Origin: an uncultured Clostridia bacterium
Lineage (GTDB): Bacteria > Bacillota > Clostridia > Christensenellales > Aristaeellaceae
DNA length: 64,000 nucleotides
Direction of reading: 5' to 3'
Assembly (NCBI GenBank): GCA_947596085.1
Contig: CANQEW010000007.1
Span: 1-64,000, forward strand
This document shows positions 2,123 through 10,949 of this stretch, one piece after another. Position 1 is the stretch's first letter. The number at the start of each line of letters is the position of its first letter. The translations under genes and the position numbers were made by a program. The notes under the pieces were generated by a model. It had not been told where the DNA came from and searched no databases. It saw nothing but the letters and a program-made list of their open reading frames with translations.

Positions 2123-4303
2123 TTACTGTTGTAGCAGCGTTTTTTTCGAGGGGAAAAGCACATCCTTTAACCCGTTAATGTCTAGGCAATTATATACATA
2201 TGCTTTTCTGCGCAATTCCTCCGGAACTTGAGAATCGTAGCGATCTACCGGAGTTGATGGCGCAATAGGCACAATATCCTCCGGAGCGATGCTGTTCAAT
2301 GCGCAGACCAGATGCTCCCAGAATTCAGCCGCGGGCAGCTCTGTGTAAAGGAAGATTCCCATCCGCATACCAACAAAGCGCGCAAATTGGATTCTGAGTT
2401 TTTCAGCTAGAGCTTTGTTTAATAGGAATAGAAGCGTGTGCATTTTTCTGCTGCCGAGCCATGGATGAAGCAGCAGCTGTTGATCGCCCAGGATGCTATA
2501 CGGCGCCTCCAGATCCATGTTTGCCGCACGCTTTCGCGCTTCGACCAGAATATCCTTTGTGCCGGGCGTCAGATAGAGATATTCCTTCTCCTCCAGCAGT
2601 ACCTGACGCATTCGCTGGACAATTCGATCGTCAATATCTATGCCTCCGCTATTCCAAAGGACCTTCTTCGGCCCCTTCGACGGCACGACATAGATGACCT
2701 TTCGCTCGGTGTCGATCTCCGTCACGAGCCAGCGCTTGCCGGCCAGGAGGATGGTCTTCTGTACATCGGGCACGCTGTCGACTTCCCCGATTTCCCGCTG
2801 GTGATACATCACGCGAAATCCGGAATTGTCAGCAAATACAGAAAGGAATCGGTAATTGCCAGCAATTCGCTCCCCCAGCAGGCCGGGAATTAGCGTGCCG
2901 GTTTCTGTCTTTTCAATGACGTCCGTCGCGAGCAAGTGCCGGAGCAGCGCCAGGTAATCCTGCTGCACCACGCTGGCGAAGGCAGGCATGGCATAGATGC
3001 GTCGCGCGAGTTCCTTCGGAGAAAGCTCTGCTTGCATCAAAAGGGAGAGCGTCTGATGGAAGAGCACGCTGTAAGGGCAGGGTTTGTCAGCAAATGATTC
3101 CACCCAATGCTCTTCAATGTATAGCTGCACGATGGCGATGTTTTGCAGAAGCTCCCACGGCAAATCCTCAAAGTCCGACTCGCCTTCCGGTTTGCTCGTC
3201 GTGATAAAGCGCATAACCGCCCTTGTGCCGCGCCGACCTGTACGGCCCAGGCGCTGCACAAAGCTCGAGCAGGTGGAGGGAGCCCCCAATTGGACAACCC
3301 GATCGAGGCCACCCAAATCGATGCCCAGCTCCAGCGTCCGCGTAGCGACCGCGACAGCGGGCTTGTCCGTTTCTCGCAACTTATTTTCCGCCTCTTCGCG
3401 CAGCATCGCCGATATACTCCCGTGATGCGCATAGAAGCAATCCGGCTCTCCGCGCCGCTCCGCGCGCTCGCGCAGCGCACAGACCGCCTCCTCCGTCTCC
3501 CCGCGGCTGTTAGTAAAGATGAGACACTTCCTTCCCCATACCTGATGATAGAGATCGTCGAAGAGCTGTTGCTTTATCAGGCCGGCGGAATCTTCGTCAT
3601 TCACAGGGAGGATATAATGCTCCATCTTCAAATCGAGCTTGCGTGCACCTTCACCACTCTCCACAAGCGAACAATCTAGCTTTGTGCCGGCGGATAGCCA
3701 GCGGCGCGCGGCGGTGTAATCATGGATCGTAGCGGACAGACCCACGCGACGTACGCTCCGGTCCAGCATGCGATCGATACGCGTCAGTTGGCACTGCAGT
3801 TGAAGGCCGCGATCTGTGCCCATGAAGGCGTGCAGTTCGTCAATGACCACGAATTGTAGTTCGGCAAACATGCGCACAACGTCGCCGGAGCGGTTCATTA
3901 ACAGCCCCTCCAGCGCCTCCGGCGTGATTTGCAATACGCCCTTGGGGCGCACCGCCGCGCGTTTCTTCTCCGATTGAGAGCGGTCGCCGTGCCAGGCGTA
4001 GATGGGAAAGTCTGCCTCCTCCAGCAGGTCCGTAATGCGCTCGAACTGATCGTTGATCAGCGCCTTCAGCGGGCCGATGTAGAGTATGCCGAAGGAATTC
4101 ACGGGCGATTGCGTCAGCTTCGTGAGCATGGGAAAGAAAGCCGCCTCCGTCTTACCGGACGCCGTGCCTGCCGCGATTAGCACGTGATTGGGCGAATCCA
4201 GAATTTCGGAAATTGCCTGAACCTGCACATCCCGCAGCTCATCCCAGTGGTGGTTCCAGATATACTCCTGAATAAATGGAGCAAGCCTGTAAAACGGACT
4301 CAT
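2123..4303 (-). CDS. sngC: Shango-type DEAD/DEAH helicase (SngC-like)
   Basis: This is a 726-aa superfamily 2 helicase related to Lhr and to the BREX helicase BrxHI. Visible motifs are Q-like VQVQAI near residue 26, Walker A AGTASGKT (45-52), DELH (155-158), SAT (190-192), and motif VI QRLGRTGRRG near residue 355, followed by a long C-terminal region. It should translocate on or unwind nucleic acid using ATP. ATG 4303 overlaps the stop of the upstream ATPase gene by four bases (ATGA), so the two are translationally coupled. With its two partners it matches the TerB/ATPase/helicase order of the Shango phage-defence system. By itself it could be any Lhr-like helicase; the assignment rests on the trio. 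Confidence 0.75.
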   Translation of the reverse strand: MSPFYRLAPFIQEYIWNHHWDELRDVQVQAISEILDSPNHVLIAAGTASGKTEAAFFPMLTKLTQSPVNSFGILYIGPLKALINDQFERITDLLEEADFPIYAWHGDRSQSEKKRAAVRPKGVLQITPEALEGLLMNRSGDVVRMFAELQFVVIDELHAFMGTDRGLQLQCQLTRIDRMLDRSVRRVGLSATIHDYTAARRWLSAGTKLDCSLVESGEGARKLDLKMEHYILPVNDEDSAGLIKQQLFDDLYHQVWGRKCLIFTNSRGETEEAVCALRERAERRGEPDCFYAHHGSISAMLREEAENKLRETDKPAVAVATRTLELGIDLGGLDRVVQLGAPSTCSSFVQRLGRTGRRGTRAVMRFITTSKPEGESDFEDLPWELLQNIAIVQLYIEEHWVESFADKPCPYSVLFHQTLSLLMQAELSPKELARRIYAMPAFASVVQQDYLALLRHLLATDVIEKTETGTLIPGLLGERIAGNYRFLSVFADNSGFRVMYHQREIGEVDSVPDVQKTILLAGKRWLVTEIDTERKVIYVVPSKGPKKVLWNSGGIDIDDRIVQRMRQVLLEEKEYLYLTPGTKDILVEARKRAANMDLEAPYSILGDQQLLLHPWLGSRKMHTLLFLLNKALAEKLRIQFARFVGMRMGIFLYTELPAAEFWEHLVCALNSIAPEDIVPIAPSTPVDRYDSQVPEELRRKAYVYNCLDINGLKDVLFPSKKTLLQQ

Positions 4304-5622
4304 AAGTCAAATAACGCAAAGGCATCGTCATCCAGGGCATCGGGATCCTCTTGGGCGCTCTTGAGCTGCACCTGTCCCGTGCCTATGATGCTCTCGTAGG
4401 TAGCGCCGGGGTTCTGATGGAGCAATGTCATCAGCGAAATGAAGTCGCGCGTGACTTCGCGCGGCGTCAACAGCTTCTCCGCTCCGATTCGATTGGCCAC
4501 CATCTGCATGAAGTCGACCATCTGCTCGGTGGTGAGAATGCCGTCGATGCGGTTGTGCGCGCAGAACACATCCCGCAGCCGCTCCAGCAGTAGGTAAATT
4601 TCCTCATTGTTCAGCGTCTCCAGGCGGATGACCGGCCCGGAGAAGTCCAACAGGCCGTCACGGGCGAGATTGCTGGTCTGAAGCCGGGAGCGCAACGCCT
4701 CATAGCTGAAGAGTCCCCGGCGTTCGTCCTCGATGGATTGGGGCGTACCGCCCACATAGATGCCCAGATACTGCGTGCGACCCTGCATCACATCGTTGAA
4801 CATCGCCAGCAGCTTCTCGTAGTTGTTCTCCCGAGAGACGCGATTTGGAATCTTGTAGAGATTGACGGATTCATCAATCAGCACCAGCAGGCCCTGGTAG
4901 CCCAGCATCTTCGAAAGGCGCGCCAGCAGCTTGATGACCTCGTACCAGCTGTCGTCGGAGATGATCTGAGACACGCCCAGCTCCCGCGCGTCTGATTTTC
5001 GCTCGTACTCGCCGCGCAACCAGCGTAGGGCGCTTTGCTTGAGATCTGCGTTGTCACCGCGGTAGCCTTCCCAGTATTTTAGCAGCACGCGGGCAAAGTC
5101 GAAGCCGTAGACGTACTCCTGCAGCTCACCCGCGATCTCTAATATCCTGCCTTCGACCTCTTGGGTGAAATTCGGCTGCCCCGTGCCGATCCCCGAGGCC
5201 GCCACCTGGCGCTGCGCGTCCATGATCCAACGCTGAAGCAGGCTCTCCAGCGCGTTCCCCTCCGGTCGCGCCTTCGTGGAAAGATTGGCGATCAATTCAC
5301 GATACAGCTTCAAGCCCTGTCCCCTCGTACCTGTTAAGCGACGCTCCGGACTCAGATCCGCATTGGCCACCAGGTAGTTGCGCTCCAGCGCGTTGTTGCG
5401 GGCCAATTGCAGCAGGAAGCTTTTGCCGCTTCCATACTTGCCGACGATGAAGCGGAACGCCCCGCCTCCGTCCGCGATGTCCGCTAAATCGGAGAGGATC
5501 GCCTGCACCTCCGCCTTGCGGCCCACGGCGATGTACTCGAGCCCAATATTCGGCACGACGCCTGCGCCCATCGATTTCAGTATCGCGGTTGAATATCTCC
5601 GCGCGATCTTCAGGTTTTCCAC
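4300..5622 (-). CDS. sngB: Shango-type ATPase (SngB-like, BrxD-related P-loop protein)
   Basis: This is a 440-aa P-loop ATPase of the DUF2791/BrxD type. Walker A is GKYGSGKS (61-68) and Walker B is LLVLIDES (about 245-252). After Walker B comes the NNYEKL and GIYVGGTPQ segment typical of these ATPases. The start is GTG 5622, four bases after the TerB gene's stop, with AAGGGAG upstream. In BREX-type loci such ATPases are paired with an Lhr-like helicase, exactly as here. Between a TerB-domain protein and a helicase it corresponds to SngB of Shango. It probably senses or remodels a nucleoprotein target and hands it to the helicase; that role is inference. Confidence 0.75.
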   Translation of the reverse strand: MENLKIARRYSTAILKSMGAGVVPNIGLEYIAVGRKAEVQAILSDLADIADGGGAFRFIVGKYGSGKSFLLQLARNNALERNYLVANADLSPERRLTGTRGQGLKLYRELIANLSTKARPEGNALESLLQRWIMDAQRQVAASGIGTGQPNFTQEVEGRILEIAGELQEYVYGFDFARVLLKYWEGYRGDNADLKQSALRWLRGEYERKSDARELGVSQIISDDSWYEVIKLLARLSKMLGYQGLLVLIDESVNLYKIPNRVSRENNYEKLLAMFNDVMQGRTQYLGIYVGGTPQSIEDERRGLFSYEALRSRLQTSNLARDGLLDFSGPVIRLETLNNEEIYLLLERLRDVFCAHNRIDGILTTEQMVDFMQMVANRIGAEKLLTPREVTRDFISLMTLLHQNPGATYESIIGTGQVQLKSAQEDPDALDDDAFALFDL

Positions 5623-5626
5623 TTGA

Positions 5627-8600
5627 TCACTCCCTTATCAGGTGATTTTGAATCTCCGGCAGATATTCCTCAAACAATCCATTTTCATCCGCGATCAGAT
5701 CGCCGATGGTGTCCGAAGCGATTTCGTTCAATCCATCCAGCAGCAGCTCTGGCATCTCTCCACGCACCTTGGCAAATTCCCGGAACGATTCCGGCCCATC
5801 CAGCAGCGCCGCCAGGGAATCCAGGCTGTAGCGCATTCGCACTTGGTCGAAGAATTCCCTCCAATCGTCACTCAGACCATTGGCATCGATGCTCCACAGT
5901 GATTCCGGGCCCTGCTCCGGCATCAGATATTCCAATTCATCGCGATAGTCTTCTGCGACGATCAAATTGTCCGCTTCCTGTTCGATCAGCATGCAGCCTA
6001 GCTGGGCCAGCGCAATCTCATTGATCTCGTCGATCAAAACCTCGGGTAGCGTCTGAAACAGCCGCTCGCACAGTGACTGCGCGCTCGTGTGCCAGCCCCC
6101 ACTGCGCATTATCTCCAGCGCCTCCCGCTGTTCCCCGGAGAGGCGATTCAGTATTGCCTGCACCGGTTCGAGATCCGTAAGCATTCCCTCTGGCGCATCG
6201 ACCGGGCGCTGAATCGCATTGGTCACCGACGCTTCCTCCATTGATACGTCAACATTTCCGATGGAGGCAAGCAGCGCCGCGCGCACTTGGTCCGACTCCG
6301 CGCGCAGCCGTTCGACGCTGCCGAGATCGAGCACGATCTGCGCCGGGGCAGTCTGCTGCGCGCTGGCCTTGGGGTTCGAGAGCTTCGCCTTCAGCTGTGC
6401 ATCCACCCAGGCCCTGACCTGTTCCGGAAGCTCCACGCCCTGCAGTCTGGAGGAGAATTTGCACTGGGCGCGCAGCGCGTTTTCCGTATATCGAATCAAA
6501 TTTCGCAGGAAACCCTGCAGCTTAAGCCCGGCGATGTAATTCCGATATTTGAAGCGATATGAACGTGATGATTCGCACAATGCGCCCACAAAAGCGATTT
6601 TCGTTTCCGTGCGCATCTTTAAGGGAGCATAAGTTTCCAGGATTCCCTTTCCGCTCTTTTCGCGCATGGATCGATCAATTGCTTCCACAACCTCGGGAAG
6701 AAGTCCGTCGACAAGTTTTTGATTGCCGCGTTGGTAAAACTTGCTGCTTGTGATGCGGTACTGGGATAATTTTTCCAACACCCATACCGGGAGCCGGAGC
6801 GTGTCTTTCCTCTCCACCATCTCCGTCAGCAACGCGTTCAATCCGGAGTCGCTCAGCCATGGAATCTCCAACAGGAATTTTCCGGCGGGTTGCTCCAGCC
6901 CATTGATGAGAGTGTAGTCAAAGACCCACTCCCCCAGGTAGCGGTTCAGTTGGGGAAGGCGCTCGCCGTAATTCTTCCAGATTCGCATCAGCATCTCCAG
7001 CCCCTGCTCTGGGCTCGTCGTGCCGATCTGATTCAAGACTTCATAGATGAAGACGAATAGGTAAGAGAGGTCCGTGTCCGGATACTTCCCCCATCGCAGC
7101 TGCGTGCGTAGCCAGAAATACCAATTCTGCTGCTCGGCGGTCATGTCCGCGTACTTCGGCCAGTAGCAGAGGAAGGATACATGAGGCGCTTCCTTTCCTT
7201 CGAAGTCAGTGCGATTGCGAGCCTCCTCGAAAAAATCCCGCACTGGATTGCGGATGGAGATGGTGATGATGTCAGAAGAATCCACATCGGCGCTGCGCGG
7301 CGGAATGGGAATTCCATGTTGGACTGTGCCACCGAGATCGATCTCCGTACCCTGATCTTCTTCAAGCAAATCCGCTCTCGACGGTCTTACCGGCAAGCGC
7401 TCCGATCTGGAGAATTCTATCTCCTCAGAGGACAATTCTGTGCGTGATCGCTCCGTCGATGCGCTCTCCAATTCGGAAAATTCTACCTCTTCCGCGGCAC
7501 GGAACACGGGTGTTGGAGAAAACCGGAACGGCTCGAACAGCGCCTCCGGCGCGCGGCCGTTGCGAATCAGCCGCCTTGTGAGCTCCGCGTCGTGATATCC
7601 CAGTATCATCGAGGCGCGGTTCAGCCACTCCTTATCCCTGGAGTAGCCCTGGAGGAAGAAGCCGATCTTGCACGCTGCACGGATGGACAGCATCGCCTGA
7701 AACAGCTTGACAGAGGTGCCGACCGAGCGGGCATCCGGTTCGATCAGGCAAGCCAGATCCCAGCGCTGATCCAATGTGCGCTCCACATCGGGGGATAATT
7801 TGTCGTAGGGGATTAAGCGGACGCGCTTGTCGTCAAACAGTGGACCGAAGATGGGCGAAGCCTCGGACAGCGCTCTGCAATCATCCCCGCTTCCCGCGAC
7901 GAGCACTATGGCATCCCGATTCTTTTCGCAATAGCGCAAAAGCATGGGCATGCCGTAAGCGACCATCGCCTCGTAACCGCCGATCATGCCGCCGTTAATG
8001 CCCCAGTGCAGCAAAAATGCCAAATGATCGTTGACGCAGCTATGCTTGTCTCCGCTGTCCCGCCAGCTTGCACCATCCATCCGCATTTCGCTGAACAGCG
8101 CGTCGAGTCGCTTTCCACCGCGATGCAACAGCAGCTCCGCGTCCAGGTTGATCGGTCTGAGCGGCTTGCCATCCGGCATCATGCCGCTTTCATCCATTCC
8201 CAAGGTCTGCAAATCCCGTCTGCGCACCCAGCCGGCGGCAATGCGGGCATAGGGCTGCTGCAGCATCTCTCGCAGCTGCTCAACGGTGAACTCTTCATCC
8301 CCGATTCGGGCATAGGGATGCGCACTGGCGCGACCAATGCCTCGCTTCTGCTTGGCGCGAGCAATCAGCAGCCAGCGATAGGGTGGTTCCACCCAGCGAT
8401 GCATCGCTTCAAAGCCGCTTAAATCGCCGGAGATGTACCTCTTCCACTTCGGATAGAATCCATCCAAAAACCAAGCTGCGCGCACATCTTCAAGTACAAC
8501 AAGTCGCTCCGGATCCGGCAAGACGCTGCGTAGATCGCTGGGGAGCAAGCCGGGACGAATCGTATCTCGTACCAGCACATAATCTTTCAGCTGGAAGCTT

Positions 8601-9268
8601 TCGTCGATGTCACTGATCTCAACGCGCCAGGCGGGCTGCAATTCGATGCGTGTCGGGGTAAAGCTCGAAATCGAAAGCGCAATGGCAGGTTCGTCCTCAT
8701 AGGAAAGTTCGCATTGCACAGGAACGCCCGCTGCGGCATAAGTCTCCAAATCCTCCCGCAGAAATGGAATGATAGAGGGGCCCTCAATGCAATCGCACCG
8801 GAAATTTGCTATCTGGCTTTCATTCAATCGATCAAAGCGCCAGTAACTGTCCTCCAAGCGCAGCCAGCCATCCTCCAATTCGACCGTTCCGAGTGGAAGT
8901 AACCTGATCAAAGCGTTTCCTTCTCGCACATACCGCACGAGAAATCCATTTGGGGCCTCATCGCGTATTTCGATGCGCTCCACATCGGAGGCCATGTAAA
9001 AGCTCAGCTTCTTCTGGCGATCATATTGGTCACGCAGGGTTTCCATCACTGTCCGCAGCGCACGCAAATCGGAAATGCGGATCTCATGGATATTCGCTCT
9101 CGCATCCTCCACAAAGCGATCCAACGCCGTCAATTCCGGCCATTTTTCGATGACTTCGGCATAGGTAGAGGCGCGATTGTCATACAAGAACTTCAGGAAG
9201 AAACTTTGTCCTTCCCGAATGAGAGAAACTTGTGTAGATTTAACGAATACGCGCGATATGAAGCCCAT
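5627..9268 (-). CDS. sngA: Shango-type TerB-domain protein (SngA-like) with a degenerate SNF2-like domain
   Basis: This large protein (1213 aa) has three visible parts. Residues about 405-570 follow the order of an SNF2 helicase N-lobe but lack its catalytic residues (see findings). Residues about 590-670 are an acidic, Ser/Arg-rich linker. Residues about 690-870 match TerB-N (CYWPKYADMTAEQQNWYFW, then DTDLSYLFVFIYEVLN). The C-terminus has two TerB-C-like copies, LPEVLIDEINEIAL and MPELLLDGLNEIAS. TerB-family domains belong to tellurium-resistance/stress systems and are the hallmark of SngA in Shango. ATG 9268 is preferred over the track's TTG 9271. It heads the operon and sngB follows after four bases. 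The phage-triggered function is inferred from the family. Confidence 0.75.
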   Translation of the reverse strand: MGFISRVFVKSTQVSLIREGQSFFLKFLYDNRASTYAEVIEKWPELTALDRFVEDARANIHEIRISDLRALRTVMETLRDQYDRQKKLSFYMASDVERIEIRDEAPNGFLVRYVREGNALIRLLPLGTVELEDGWLRLEDSYWRFDRLNESQIANFRCDCIEGPSIIPFLREDLETYAAAGVPVQCELSYEDEPAIALSISSFTPTRIELQPAWRVEISDIDESFQLKDYVLVRDTIRPGLLPSDLRSVLPDPERLVVLEDVRAAWFLDGFYPKWKRYISGDLSGFEAMHRWVEPPYRWLLIARAKQKRGIGRASAHPYARIGDEEFTVEQLREMLQQPYARIAAGWVRRRDLQTLGMDESGMMPDGKPLRPINLDAELLLHRGGKRLDALFSEMRMDGASWRDSGDKHSCVNDHLAFLLHWGINGGMIGGYEAMVAYGMPMLLRYCEKNRDAIVLVAGSGDDCRALSEASPIFGPLFDDKRVRLIPYDKLSPDVERTLDQRWDLACLIEPDARSVGTSVKLFQAMLSIRAACKIGFFLQGYSRDKEWLNRASMILGYHDAELTRRLIRNGRAPEALFEPFRFSPTPVFRAAEEVEFSELESASTERSRTELSSEEIEFSRSERLPVRPSRADLLEEDQGTEIDLGGTVQHGIPIPPRSADVDSSDIITISIRNPVRDFFEEARNRTDFEGKEAPHVSFLCYWPKYADMTAEQQNWYFWLRTQLRWGKYPDTDLSYLFVFIYEVLNQIGTTSPEQGLEMLMRIWKNYGERLPQLNRYLGEWVFDYTLINGLEQPAGKFLLEIPWLSDSGLNALLTEMVERKDTLRLPVWVLEKLSQYRITSSKFYQRGNQKLVDGLLPEVVEAIDRSMREKSGKGILETYAPLKMRTETKIAFVGALCESSRSYRFKYRNYIAGLKLQGFLRNLIRYTENALRAQCKFSSRLQGVELPEQVRAWVDAQLKAKLSNPKASAQQTAPAQIVLDLGSVERLRAESDQVRAALLASIGNVDVSMEEASVTNAIQRPVDAPEGMLTDLEPVQAILNRLSGEQREALEIMRSGGWHTSAQSLCERLFQTLPEVLIDEINEIALAQLGCMLIEQEADNLIVAEDYRDELEYLMPEQGPESLWSIDANGLSDDWREFFDQVRMRYSLDSLAALLDGPESFREFAKVRGEMPELLLDGLNEIASDTIGDLIADENGLFEEYLPEIQNHLIRE

Positions 9269-9303
9269 CAAATCATTCCAAACATATCTTTAGAATAGAC
9301 TGT

Positions 9304-9343
9304 TCTATATATAGATTATACCACAGAATAACAATTATGACAA
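9304..9343 (-). promoter_or_regulatory. Promoter of the sngABC operon with overlapping palindrome
   Basis: On the minus strand TTGTCA (9338-9343), a 17-base spacer and TATAAT (9315-9320, preceded by TGTGG) form a near-consensus sigma-A promoter about 45 bases before the sngA start. The 12-bp perfect palindrome TCTATATATAGA (9304-9315) touches the -10 box and covers the expected transcription start, the usual place for a repressor operator. Confidence 0.6.
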
Positions 9344-9366
9344 TATTCATCATCTTACCTTCTTCT

Positions 9367-9710
9367 TATTTGCTGTAGATTTGTCCAAAATGTTTGACAA
9401 ACCTACATCCGCGCACCGTAATGACATCATATATACGATTAATTGTGTTGCAATCTTCCCATTGTGAGGTACGAAAACAGTCCGGTACAACTCCAAAATA
9501 CGGATTAATAACGGCTATTTTTCGCAATGTTTCAATTCTCCTGGGATCTCGCTTCTCTTCAGTTTTGATTGCTGTTCGCGAATTTAGAAGTTTCCCAGCA
9601 TCTAGGGCTTTAATGCGAATCTCCCACCATTTTTAATACGATCCATCGCTTCCAGATAGTGCAGAAATTTTATGATGCTGTTCTACCGTCTCAGCACTTA
9701 AAGTAATCTC
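9367..9710 (-). pseudogene. AT-rich gene remnant of unknown family
   Basis: The minus strand between sngA and the histidine kinase is open from about 9634 down to a TAA at 9367-9369 and reads as plausible protein (KWWEIRIKALDAGKLLNS, later NPYFGVVPDCFRTS). It has no start codon of its own. Upstream the same frame continues to the kinase stop after one in-frame TAA. The base composition is clearly AT-rich, unlike the kinase. It is absent from the ORF track because it lacks a start. I read it as the 3' end of a lost gene, perhaps from the same transferred block as the sng genes. No family is recognised. Confidence 0.3.
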
Positions 9711-9713
9711 ATG

Positions 9714-10949
9714 TCATCGGGTTGGCAATGTTACGGTAATTGCGAGCGTTTGAGGATCGCGCATCGCCGCGGAGATTTTTCCCTTGTGGGTCGCTACAAT
9801 GGCGCTGGCAATGGAGAGGCCGAGACCGTAGCCGGGAGTCTTGGAGCTGCGCGAGCTGTCGCCACGGTAGAAGCGCTCAAACATGTTGTCCAACGTTTCT
9901 TGCGGGAGGTTCTCCACCGTGTTTTCGACGCTCAGGGCGATACCCTTCGGTCGCTTCTCCAGCGTCAAAGCGATGCGTCCGTCGGCGGTCGTATATTTGA
10001 TGGCATTGTCCAACAGGATGGAAACCAACTGAGAGATGCCCTTTTCGCTGCCGGTATAAGAGAGCATTGGCTCGATTCTCGCCTCAAAATGCTTGCCCTG
10101 GGTGCGCGCCAATGTTTGAAATGAACCCGCCGCTTCGCTCACTACGTCGGAAAGCGCAAATTCGATCATCTGGGTCTGGCTATCCTCTTCCAAGCGGGAG
10201 AGGGTGATCAGATCGTTGGTCAACCCTGCCAGTCGCTTCGACTGCTGACGGATGTCCGCGAGCCACTCGTTGTCCTCGCCCAGATCCATCGAGAGGATCT
10301 CTGCGTCGGCGTCGATGATGGTCAGCGGGGTCTTGAGTTCGTGACCGGCATCAGTGATGAAGCGGCGCTGTTTTTCGTAATTCTCCGAGAAAGGCTTTAC
10401 GATGCGCTTCGACAGCAGCACCGCCAGCGCAAATACCAGCATGTATCCGATCCACGAGATGACCACGCTGATGAGCAGCACCTGCCGTTGCGATTCCAGC
10501 AGGCGCCCGCAGTCGAGGAAGATCAGCTCCCGGCCGTCGCCCTGCGTGTCGCAGAGCAGGAAGCGATAGCTATCCGCGAAGCCGCGCTCCCGGCCCGAGG
10601 CGAGCGCGCGCCGGGCGTACTTGATCGCCATCGCCTCATCCACAGCCGCAATGCGCTCCACGTTGGCTTGGCCGGGCTCGCCATCCTCGTCCACCTGGAC
10701 GGTGAAGTAGCGCATCTCAAAGGGCAGCTCCGGCGAGCGAAAGCGGGGATTGGCCCTGCGCCAGTCGAGGCGGCTATGTTCGCCGGAACTGGGCCCGTCG
10801 CTGTCGCGCAGCAGCGCGAGCACGTTGTCCGCACCCCGCGCGATGCCCCGATAGTTCGTCGCGTTCAGCAGACCGATGATGAGTGTGAGCACCAGCAGGA
10901 GAGACAGCATCGAGATGCCGACCAGCTTGAACCGAAGTTTTCGGATCAT
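9714..10949 (-). CDS. Sensor histidine kinase of a two-component system
   Basis: The protein (411 aa) has a first membrane helix at about residues 9-29, an extracellular domain of about 125 residues, a second helix at about 157-179, then HisKA and HATPase domains. The phosphoacceptor is in AGHELKTPL (His203), the N-box is ILLDNAIKY (about 311-319) and the G-box is PGYGLGLSIA. The track's longer ORF starts at 11051. MIRKLRF at 10949 is the better start because it overlaps the regulator's stop by four bases (ATGA). It should phosphorylate the regulator in response to an envelope signal. The divergent exporter operon is the obvious target, as in peptide- or antibiotic-responsive ABC modules. Confidence 0.9.
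   Translation of the reverse strand: MIRKLRFKLVGISMLSLLLVLTLIIGLLNATNYRGIARGADNVLALLRDSDGPSSGEHSRLDWRRANPRFRSPELPFEMRYFTVQVDEDGEPGQANVERIAAVDEAMAIKYARRALASGRERGFADSYRFLLCDTQGDGRELIFLDCGRLLESQRQVLLISVVISWIGYMLVFALAVLLSKRIVKPFSENYEKQRRFITDAGHELKTPLTIIDADAEILSMDLGEDNEWLADIRQQSKRLAGLTNDLITLSRLEEDSQTQMIEFALSDVVSEAAGSFQTLARTQGKHFEARIEPMLSYTGSEKGISQLVSILLDNAIKYTTADGRIALTLEKRPKGIALSVENTVENLPQETLDNMFERFYRGDSSRSSKTPGYGLGLSIASAIVATHKGKISAAMRDPQTLAITVTLPTR

Follow-up and report, generated by a model that had tools for sequence, protein, structure and literature searches.

What is the part of SngA that precedes its TerB domains, and what might it contribute to a Shango defense system? The question arises from a 64,000-nucleotide stretch of DNA (the window) of an uncultured Clostridia bacterium, in which PADLOC recognized a complete Shango system, with sngA, sngB and sngC lying in that order in one operon on the minus strand (E 1e-83 to 1e-224; Table 1). 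Pfam and NCBIfam gave no family match for SngA residues 1 to 640, and PADLOC likewise gave none for residues 1 to 638. The initial annotation had proposed that this part hides an inactivated SNF2 N-lobe at residues ~405 to 570, with all catalytic positions changed, which would serve as a DNA-binding sensor and rely on two active motors encoded beside it. The neighboring gene products do appear to be motors, as judged by inspection of their motifs, in that the Walker A sequences of both SngB (GKYGSGKS) and SngC (AGTASGKT) are intact. The original E. coli Shango paper is reportedly that of Millman et al. 2022. According to the accessible text of PMC10250203, anti-phage activity has been demonstrated for the Shango system of P. 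aeruginosa PA14; the window locus is assigned to Shango by its genes. The G+C content of the window falls to 0.40 at positions 1 to 2000 and to 0.51 at positions 8001 to 10000, as compared with about 0.6 elsewhere, and these low G+C segments around the operon would fit a transferred segment.

Table 1. Features of the Shango operon and of SngA in the window. SngA residues are counted from the ATG at 9268; hhalign percentages are probabilities.
Feature	Position	Strand	Evidence or remark
sngC, BrxHI-like SF2 helicase	2123..4303	-	PADLOC SngC E 7.4e-224; BrxHI 7.2e-128; Walker A AGTASGKT, DELH
sngB, BrxC/BrxD-type AAA+ ATPase	4300..5622	-	PADLOC SngB E 6.8e-172; BrxD 1.2e-45; Walker A GKYGSGKS
sngA, TerB protein, 1213 aa	5627..9268	-	PADLOC SngA E 1.3e-83 over residues 639-1116; TerB_N and TerB_C
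Alternative sngA start, TTG	9271		One residue longer than from the ATG at 9268
TerB_C domain, best of two matched stretches	5930..6370	-	Pfam PF15615 E 8.1e-13
TerB_N domain	6656..7237	-	Pfam PF13208 E 3.1e-27
Degenerate SNF2 N-lobe, residues 396-600	7469..8083	-	hhalign 71% alone, 93-96% with DUF3670-like region; hmmsearch matches on intact SNF2 helicases
Motif III equivalent, IGFFLQGYS (535-543)	7640..7666	-
Motif II equivalent, WDLACLIEPD (503-512)	7733..7762	-	Asp position I509, Glu position E510
Motif Ia equivalent, VLVAGSGDDCRA (455-466)	7871..7906	-	hhalign alignment
Walker A equivalent, WGINGGMIGGYEAMVA (422-437)	7958..8005	-	Lys position V436
DUF3670-like region, residues 286-395	8084..8413	-	hhalign to DUF3670-SNF2 family; HMM match to corresponding block in SNF2 L052/L095
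Module A, N-terminal, residues 1-285, no known family	8414..9268	-	Own profile

Eleven distinct sequences that contain this region (the window and L020 to L028, plus L030) were compiled, the relatives having been assembled from genome searches, a genome-contig scan and a plasmid search. Their profile was compared by hhalign with SNF2 helicase profiles built from other genomes. Against 20 mixed SNF2 sequences the match probability was 52-69% in local and 11-50% in global mode; against 13 full SNF2 N-halves it was 92.5% and 94.4%, and against 14 intact DUF3670-type SNF2 helicases it reached 94.2% (local, over profile columns 259-553) and 95.7% (global). Residues 285-600 alone gave 93-95% with the DUF3670-type profile and residues 395-600 alone gave 58-71%, the overall range for the lobe by itself being 18-71%, depending on template and mode. 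The accompanying E-values for the longer profiles (1e-7 to 4e-9) are single-comparison values. Control profiles of SngB, SngC and RecG/Mfd matched the region at only 0.1%, 0.8-1.5% and 0.1%, respectively. The SNF2 match that the initial annotation implied is, then, found by profile-profile comparison, at 93-96% with the DUF3670-like part included as against 0.1-1.5% for the controls. RecG/Mfd, taken as a positive control, gave 95% with the SNF2 profile; the SngC family gave 2.1%, and therefore not every helicase is recognized by the profile. When the window columns were compared with the DUF3670 profile, the score was 53.0 (83%), whereas the best of 100 block shuffles reached 39.4 (30%), which argues that the motif order is more than chance. 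With the mixed profile the real score was 38.8, and the maxima for the same columns were 22.7 in 200 column shuffles and 29.7 in 200 block shuffles. These comparisons demonstrate, at the level of sequence profiles, a remote homology of SngA residues ~286-600 to the DUF3670 region and first RecA lobe of the ZorD/DpdE-like SNF2 branch.

The relationship lies below the reach of curated models: Pfam SNF2 or DUF3670 (PF12419) had no match at E<=10 in 10 members, PF12419 had none in G000 or in 61 genomes of the order, and a search of PDB sequences with profile A2 likewise gave no match. The kinship of residues 286-395 to DUF3670 is thus indicated by hhalign and by weak HMM matches that fall under the curated Pfam score. 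A TerB profile also matched the region, at 97%, and was dismissed as trivial because the end of the lobe falls within the C-terminal 560 residues of the ~815-aa proteins.

The HMM matches came from two scans. In a set of 495 open frames, enriched in SNF2 by the choice of loci, hmmsearch with the region HMM matched only two proteins outside SngA, L052 (E 1.2e-6) and L069 (E 5.5e-4), both of which are intact DUF3670-SNF2 helicases. The DUF3670 block precedes the motif II block in L052 (L095 is the same gene), as it does in SngA, and the SNF2 part of L052 is related to ZorD (phmmer E 1.7e-67); the PADLOC ZorD and DpdE models also match this branch. The class supplied 382 whole genomes, not picked for SNF2, for a less biased scan with profile A2 at E<=0.01. 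Five genomes matched: two through lobe-bearing SngA (G000 and G551), one through a protein with the N-terminal module A (G422), and the last two, G592 (E 0.0059) and G431 (E 0.0062), through intact DUF3670-SNF2 helicases, the G431 gene being L052. Apart from the G422 protein, these were the sole matches outside SngA. A per-genome E of 0.006 is expected about twice by chance in 382 genomes, and the argument, therefore, rests on both proteins being SNF2 helicases that were matched at the equivalent place (profile positions 484-548, the motif II part).

The homology begins earlier than had been supposed. The lobe is present where the initial annotation had put it, at residues ~405-570, and it is preceded from residue ~286 by the DUF3670-like region, which had been overlooked. 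Residues 1-285, designated module A, are a different matter; they were rejected as part of the SNF2 homology, as they gave 0.6% alone, are absent from four ~815-aa SngA proteins and occur free of the lobe in G422. By its own profile, module A was found in 6 of the 11 lobe-bearing sequences, the window included. The ~815-aa SngA proteins of L025-L028 start straight at residue ~290, L024 has a start that differs from module A, and the TerB-type protein of G422 (L093/L096, G422:C194) matches module A (E 2e-15, profile positions 90-282) and lacks the lobe. These three arrangements indicate that residues 1-285 and 286-600 are separable modules ahead of TerB_N. Full-length alignments that run through module A were for this reason, together with its 0.6% score alone, not counted in its favor. 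Downstream of the lobe, Pfam detected no Helicase_C or second RecA lobe in SngA, and TerB_N comes next.

The four stretches that had been quoted as motif equivalents are all encoded by the minus-strand open reading frame at 5627-9268: HLAFLLHWGINGGMIGGYEAM corresponds to residues 415-435, VLVAGSGDDCRA to 455-466, RWDLACLIEPDARSV to 502-516 and IGFFLQGYS to 535-543. The Walker A equivalent was located through an ungapped 'WGixGG' anchor, a placement that is less certain than that of motif II. At its Lys position the 11 sequences carry V, A, A, E, S, A, G, G, G, G and S, and at the Walker B Asp position they carry I, L or V, so that both residues are lost in 11 of 11. The neighboring Walker B Glu position is E in six sequences (including E510 of the window), N in four and D in one. 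Phe occupies the first position of the TGTP motif in every sequence, and all 10 rows of alignment A2 share the paired glycines of WGixGG and the D of WD. The signatures of an active SNF2 ATPase are absent from the window SngA, which has no GxGK[ST] and has IEPD in place of DE[AS][HQ]; among the relatives as well, the Walker A and DEAH residues are kept in none of the 11. The claim that all catalytic positions are changed was slightly too strong, given the Glu that persists in six sequences, although it holds for the Lys and Asp. Because these two residues are lost and there is no second lobe before TerB_N, ATP hydrolysis by the lobe through the classical SNF2 route is very unlikely on the evidence of its sequence.

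AlphaFold2 models, each built from three sequences, had a mean pLDDT of 52.5 for residues 1-633 and 44.1 for residues 283-600. From residue 408 on, the low-confidence model runs helix, helix, strand (454-459), helix, helix, strand (483-487), short helices, strand (506-510), helix, strand (536-538). The predicted order of elements from motif Ia on agrees with that of an SNF2 N-lobe after its first strand; the fold itself is not confident, and neither model clearly forms the first strand, where Walker A would lie. The top PDB match of the first model in Foldseek was ZorD (8qy7), which is not significant (E 2.3e-3, TM 0.13). VIA-align gave ZorD a Z of 4.2 with an rmsd of 20.4 over model residues 6-414, which lie mostly outside the lobe, and this is below a meaningful level. 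The second model (pLDDT 44.1) retrieved only unrelated proteins, including LysR effector domains and other alpha/beta folds. Because of the low confidence and of these unrelated matches, we do not take either model as evidence for the fold.

How widely is the region distributed? With the full SngA as query, 3 of 60 near genomes matched. With the N-terminal part as query, only the genome of origin matched among 396 of the order, and 7 of 398 did so in the phylum, its own included; viral contigs gave no match, nor did one genome-contig scan. The members come from different bacteria, among them a rumen Clostridiales (L020, 53-63% identical to the window, depending on the part) and a Paenibacillus peoriae plasmid (L022), and some are only ~20% identical overall. 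sngB and sngC directly follow the lobe-bearing gene in 10 of the 11, the window included (9 of the 10 relatives), although in L025 the contig ends within SngC and in L026 SngC is spread over two frames; the region is, on this sequence evidence, conserved across bacteria in sngABC operons. The exception, in G022 (L005/L021, both on contig G022:C284, at 5644-7509), is a stand-alone protein of 621 aa, homologous to SngA residues 1-610, that stops in the linker before TerB_N and has apparently unrelated neighboring genes; the genome is 86% complete and has no SngB. The lobe can thus occur apart from Shango, this homologue being without TerB or SngB. The stand-alone protein could be either a remnant or an independent protein.

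Most of the other Shango loci examined lack the lobe. Among 14 such loci drawn from 29 genomes of the class, besides that of the window, with an SngA match, it was present in one (L030, in G551), and hmmsearch found no lobe match in five plasmid Shango loci. In an SngB tree with 29 rows, the loci that carry the lobe group together without forming one clade; 4 changes are required as against a mean of 8.4 in shuffles, and 2 of 500 shuffles were as low. An SNF2 gene adjoining sngA was considered as the donor of the lobe; no annotated SNF2 gene lies next to sngA in the five plasmid loci. In PA14, a large helicase adjoins the Shango system (accessible text of PMC10250203).

The loci varied in other respects. 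Two SngA proteins of ~1210 aa (L031_3 and L032_3; G588:C83 and G648:C127) have three TerB-like stretches and are followed by SngB and SngC, with unknown genes upstream. L038 (G422:C30:5563-10109) has one SngB and then two SngC-like helicase genes in tandem. By eye, the N-termini of three SngA proteins (L029_5, L035_5 and L037_2) are hydrophobic and apparently membrane-spanning, replacing the SNF2-like part. Upstream of the Paenibacillus sngA lies a gene (L022:5954-9415) for a 1153-aa protein with GEMGVGKS and DECH sequences and no PADLOC match.

Several known systems resemble parts of this arrangement. DUF3670 SNF2 helicases of the ZorD/DpdE-like branch (L052, L069 and L072) share with SngA the order of a DUF3670-like region, a WG/LG-G loop, motif Ia, a TTY/IPY strand, WD and motif II, and a motif III strand; unlike SngA, which runs into TerB_N, they keep DMGLGKT, DEAQ and a second lobe. 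ZorD of Zorya (PDB 8qy7), the weak top structural match, whose SNF2 part is related to L052, is a full SNF2 protein. Canonical Shango SngA, as described in the accessible text of PMC10250203, is similarly a TerB protein encoded ahead of an ATPase and a helicase, whereas the SngA proteins of the five plasmid loci and of most clostridial loci examined are mostly shorter and have no SNF2-like profile match. SngB and SngC are relatives of the BrxD-BrxHI pair of BREX type 2, for which the accessible sources describe no TerB or dead first-lobe partner. SngC has been grouped with BrxHI, DruE and DpdJ (PMC12278908, accessible text), and BrxD has been proposed to load or activate BrxHI (PMC12839542, accessible text). 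Inactive SWI2/SNF2 second domains occur in DndH and BREX PglZ, where DNA binding or invader sensing has been proposed for them (PMC10853773, PMC12839542; accessible text). Compared by these descriptions, they too are inactive SNF2-derived P-loop domains at the N-terminus of a defense protein; they differ in being the second (C-terminal) helicase domain, whereas SngA has the first lobe and the DUF3670-like region, fused to TerB.

The reading that we consider probable is that SngA carries the front half of a ZorD/DpdE-like SNF2 helicase, inactivated and deprived of its second lobe, which now serves as a non-catalytic recognition or docking module. The front half (the DUF3670-like region and first RecA lobe) would have been captured upstream of TerB_N, and the captured half would then have been stripped of its ATP-hydrolysis residues and second lobe. 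The lobe could hold SngA on DNA or on a partner without catalysis; the BrxD-like SngB may load or activate the BrxHI-like SngC at that place, and the TerB modules may relay the signal. Because of the analogy with BrxD-BrxHI loading and with the inactive SNF2 domains of DndH and PglZ, we favor SngA as a putative recognition subunit of the SngB-SngC motor. What had been proposed as a dead SNF2 lobe acting as a DNA-binding sensor stands as far as the degenerate N-lobe and, on inspection, the Walker motifs of both neighbors are concerned; the role of sensor and the dependence on the two motors are conjectural, as is DNA binding, which is one of the forms that such a module could take.

One could envision, alternatively, that the lobe is a protein-protein interface, which docks on or blocks SngC or a host SNF2 protein or helicase and makes no contact with DNA. 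We regard this as possible but unlikely. The encoding of 10 of the 11 members with SngB and SngC, that of the window among them, and the clustering of lobe-bearing SngA in the SngB tree (4 changes, as compared with 8.4 in shuffles, of which 2 of 500 were as low) are what an interface with these partners would predict, but the lobe is missing from most of the other SngA proteins examined, which are nonetheless accompanied by SngB and SngC, and it is therefore not needed for the core complex. It is less probable that the region is a different, Rossmann-like alpha/beta ligand-binding domain that resembles SNF2 only in its strand-helix order and hydrophobic pattern. Such a domain would be compatible with the low confidence of the models, with the absence of a Pfam match and of a strand predicted where Walker A would lie, and with the matches of the second model, among which are LysR effector domains and further alpha/beta folds; against it, the match singles out SNF2 and is best with the DUF3670 branch, upstream DUF3670-like block included, while other P-loop profiles gave 0.1-1.5%, and in the 382 genomes the two matches outside SngA other than the G422 protein (G592 and G431) were SNF2 helicases matched at the same motif.

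That the lobe still binds or slowly hydrolyses nucleotide through an altered site, formed by the Gly-rich WGixGGlxGG loop and the [EDN]-[PAV]-[DNH] motif, seems improbable to us; the Walker A site has conserved glycines and the motif II site a conserved, largely acidic [EDN]-x-[DNH] pair, yet the Lys and Asp, the usual ligands of Mg-ATP, are gone from all 11 sequences. A related scenario, to which we give similarly little credence, is that the dead N-lobe was rebuilt as a ligand site for a nucleotide signal or a DNA end, which the loop and the [EDN]-x-[DNH] pair would bind with no hydrolysis, thereby switching TerB and, through it, the SngB-SngC motor. Least probable of all, and very much so, is a functionless leftover of a gene fusion. 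Between the window and L020 the lobe is 48% identical, as compared with 66% over residues 256-395 and 65% in the TerB part (the linker lies outside this comparison), and a copy without TerB stands alone in G022, as might be expected of a leftover. The open frame and the WGixGG, WD and Phe positions are, however, preserved in 11 sequences as divergent as ~20% overall identity, and the codon positions point the same way: over 205 codons of the lobe, 43, 31 and 57% of positions 1, 2 and 3 differ between the window and L020, so that third positions differ at about double the rate of second positions (0.57 vs 0.31), which indicates that the lobe is under constraint.

Inactive SNF2 domains in defense proteins are already known; the open-license literature, as far as its accessible text extends, yielded no first lobe with a DUF3670-like region joined to TerB and no description of an SNF2-like part in SngA, which is weak evidence of novelty. 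The same accessible literature yielded no mechanism of phage recognition by Shango. If a non-catalytic recognition or docking module is the correct reading, SngA would extend the set of inactive SNF2 domains that have been proposed as sensors (DndH and PglZ) to a first lobe. Were the rebuilt ligand site true instead, the lobe-bearing loci would represent a Shango sub-type with its own trigger. The lobe is a defined, removable module of traceable origin, half of an SNF2 motor, that is present in some SngA proteins only, and it thus offers a direct experiment on the phage range or the trigger of Shango.
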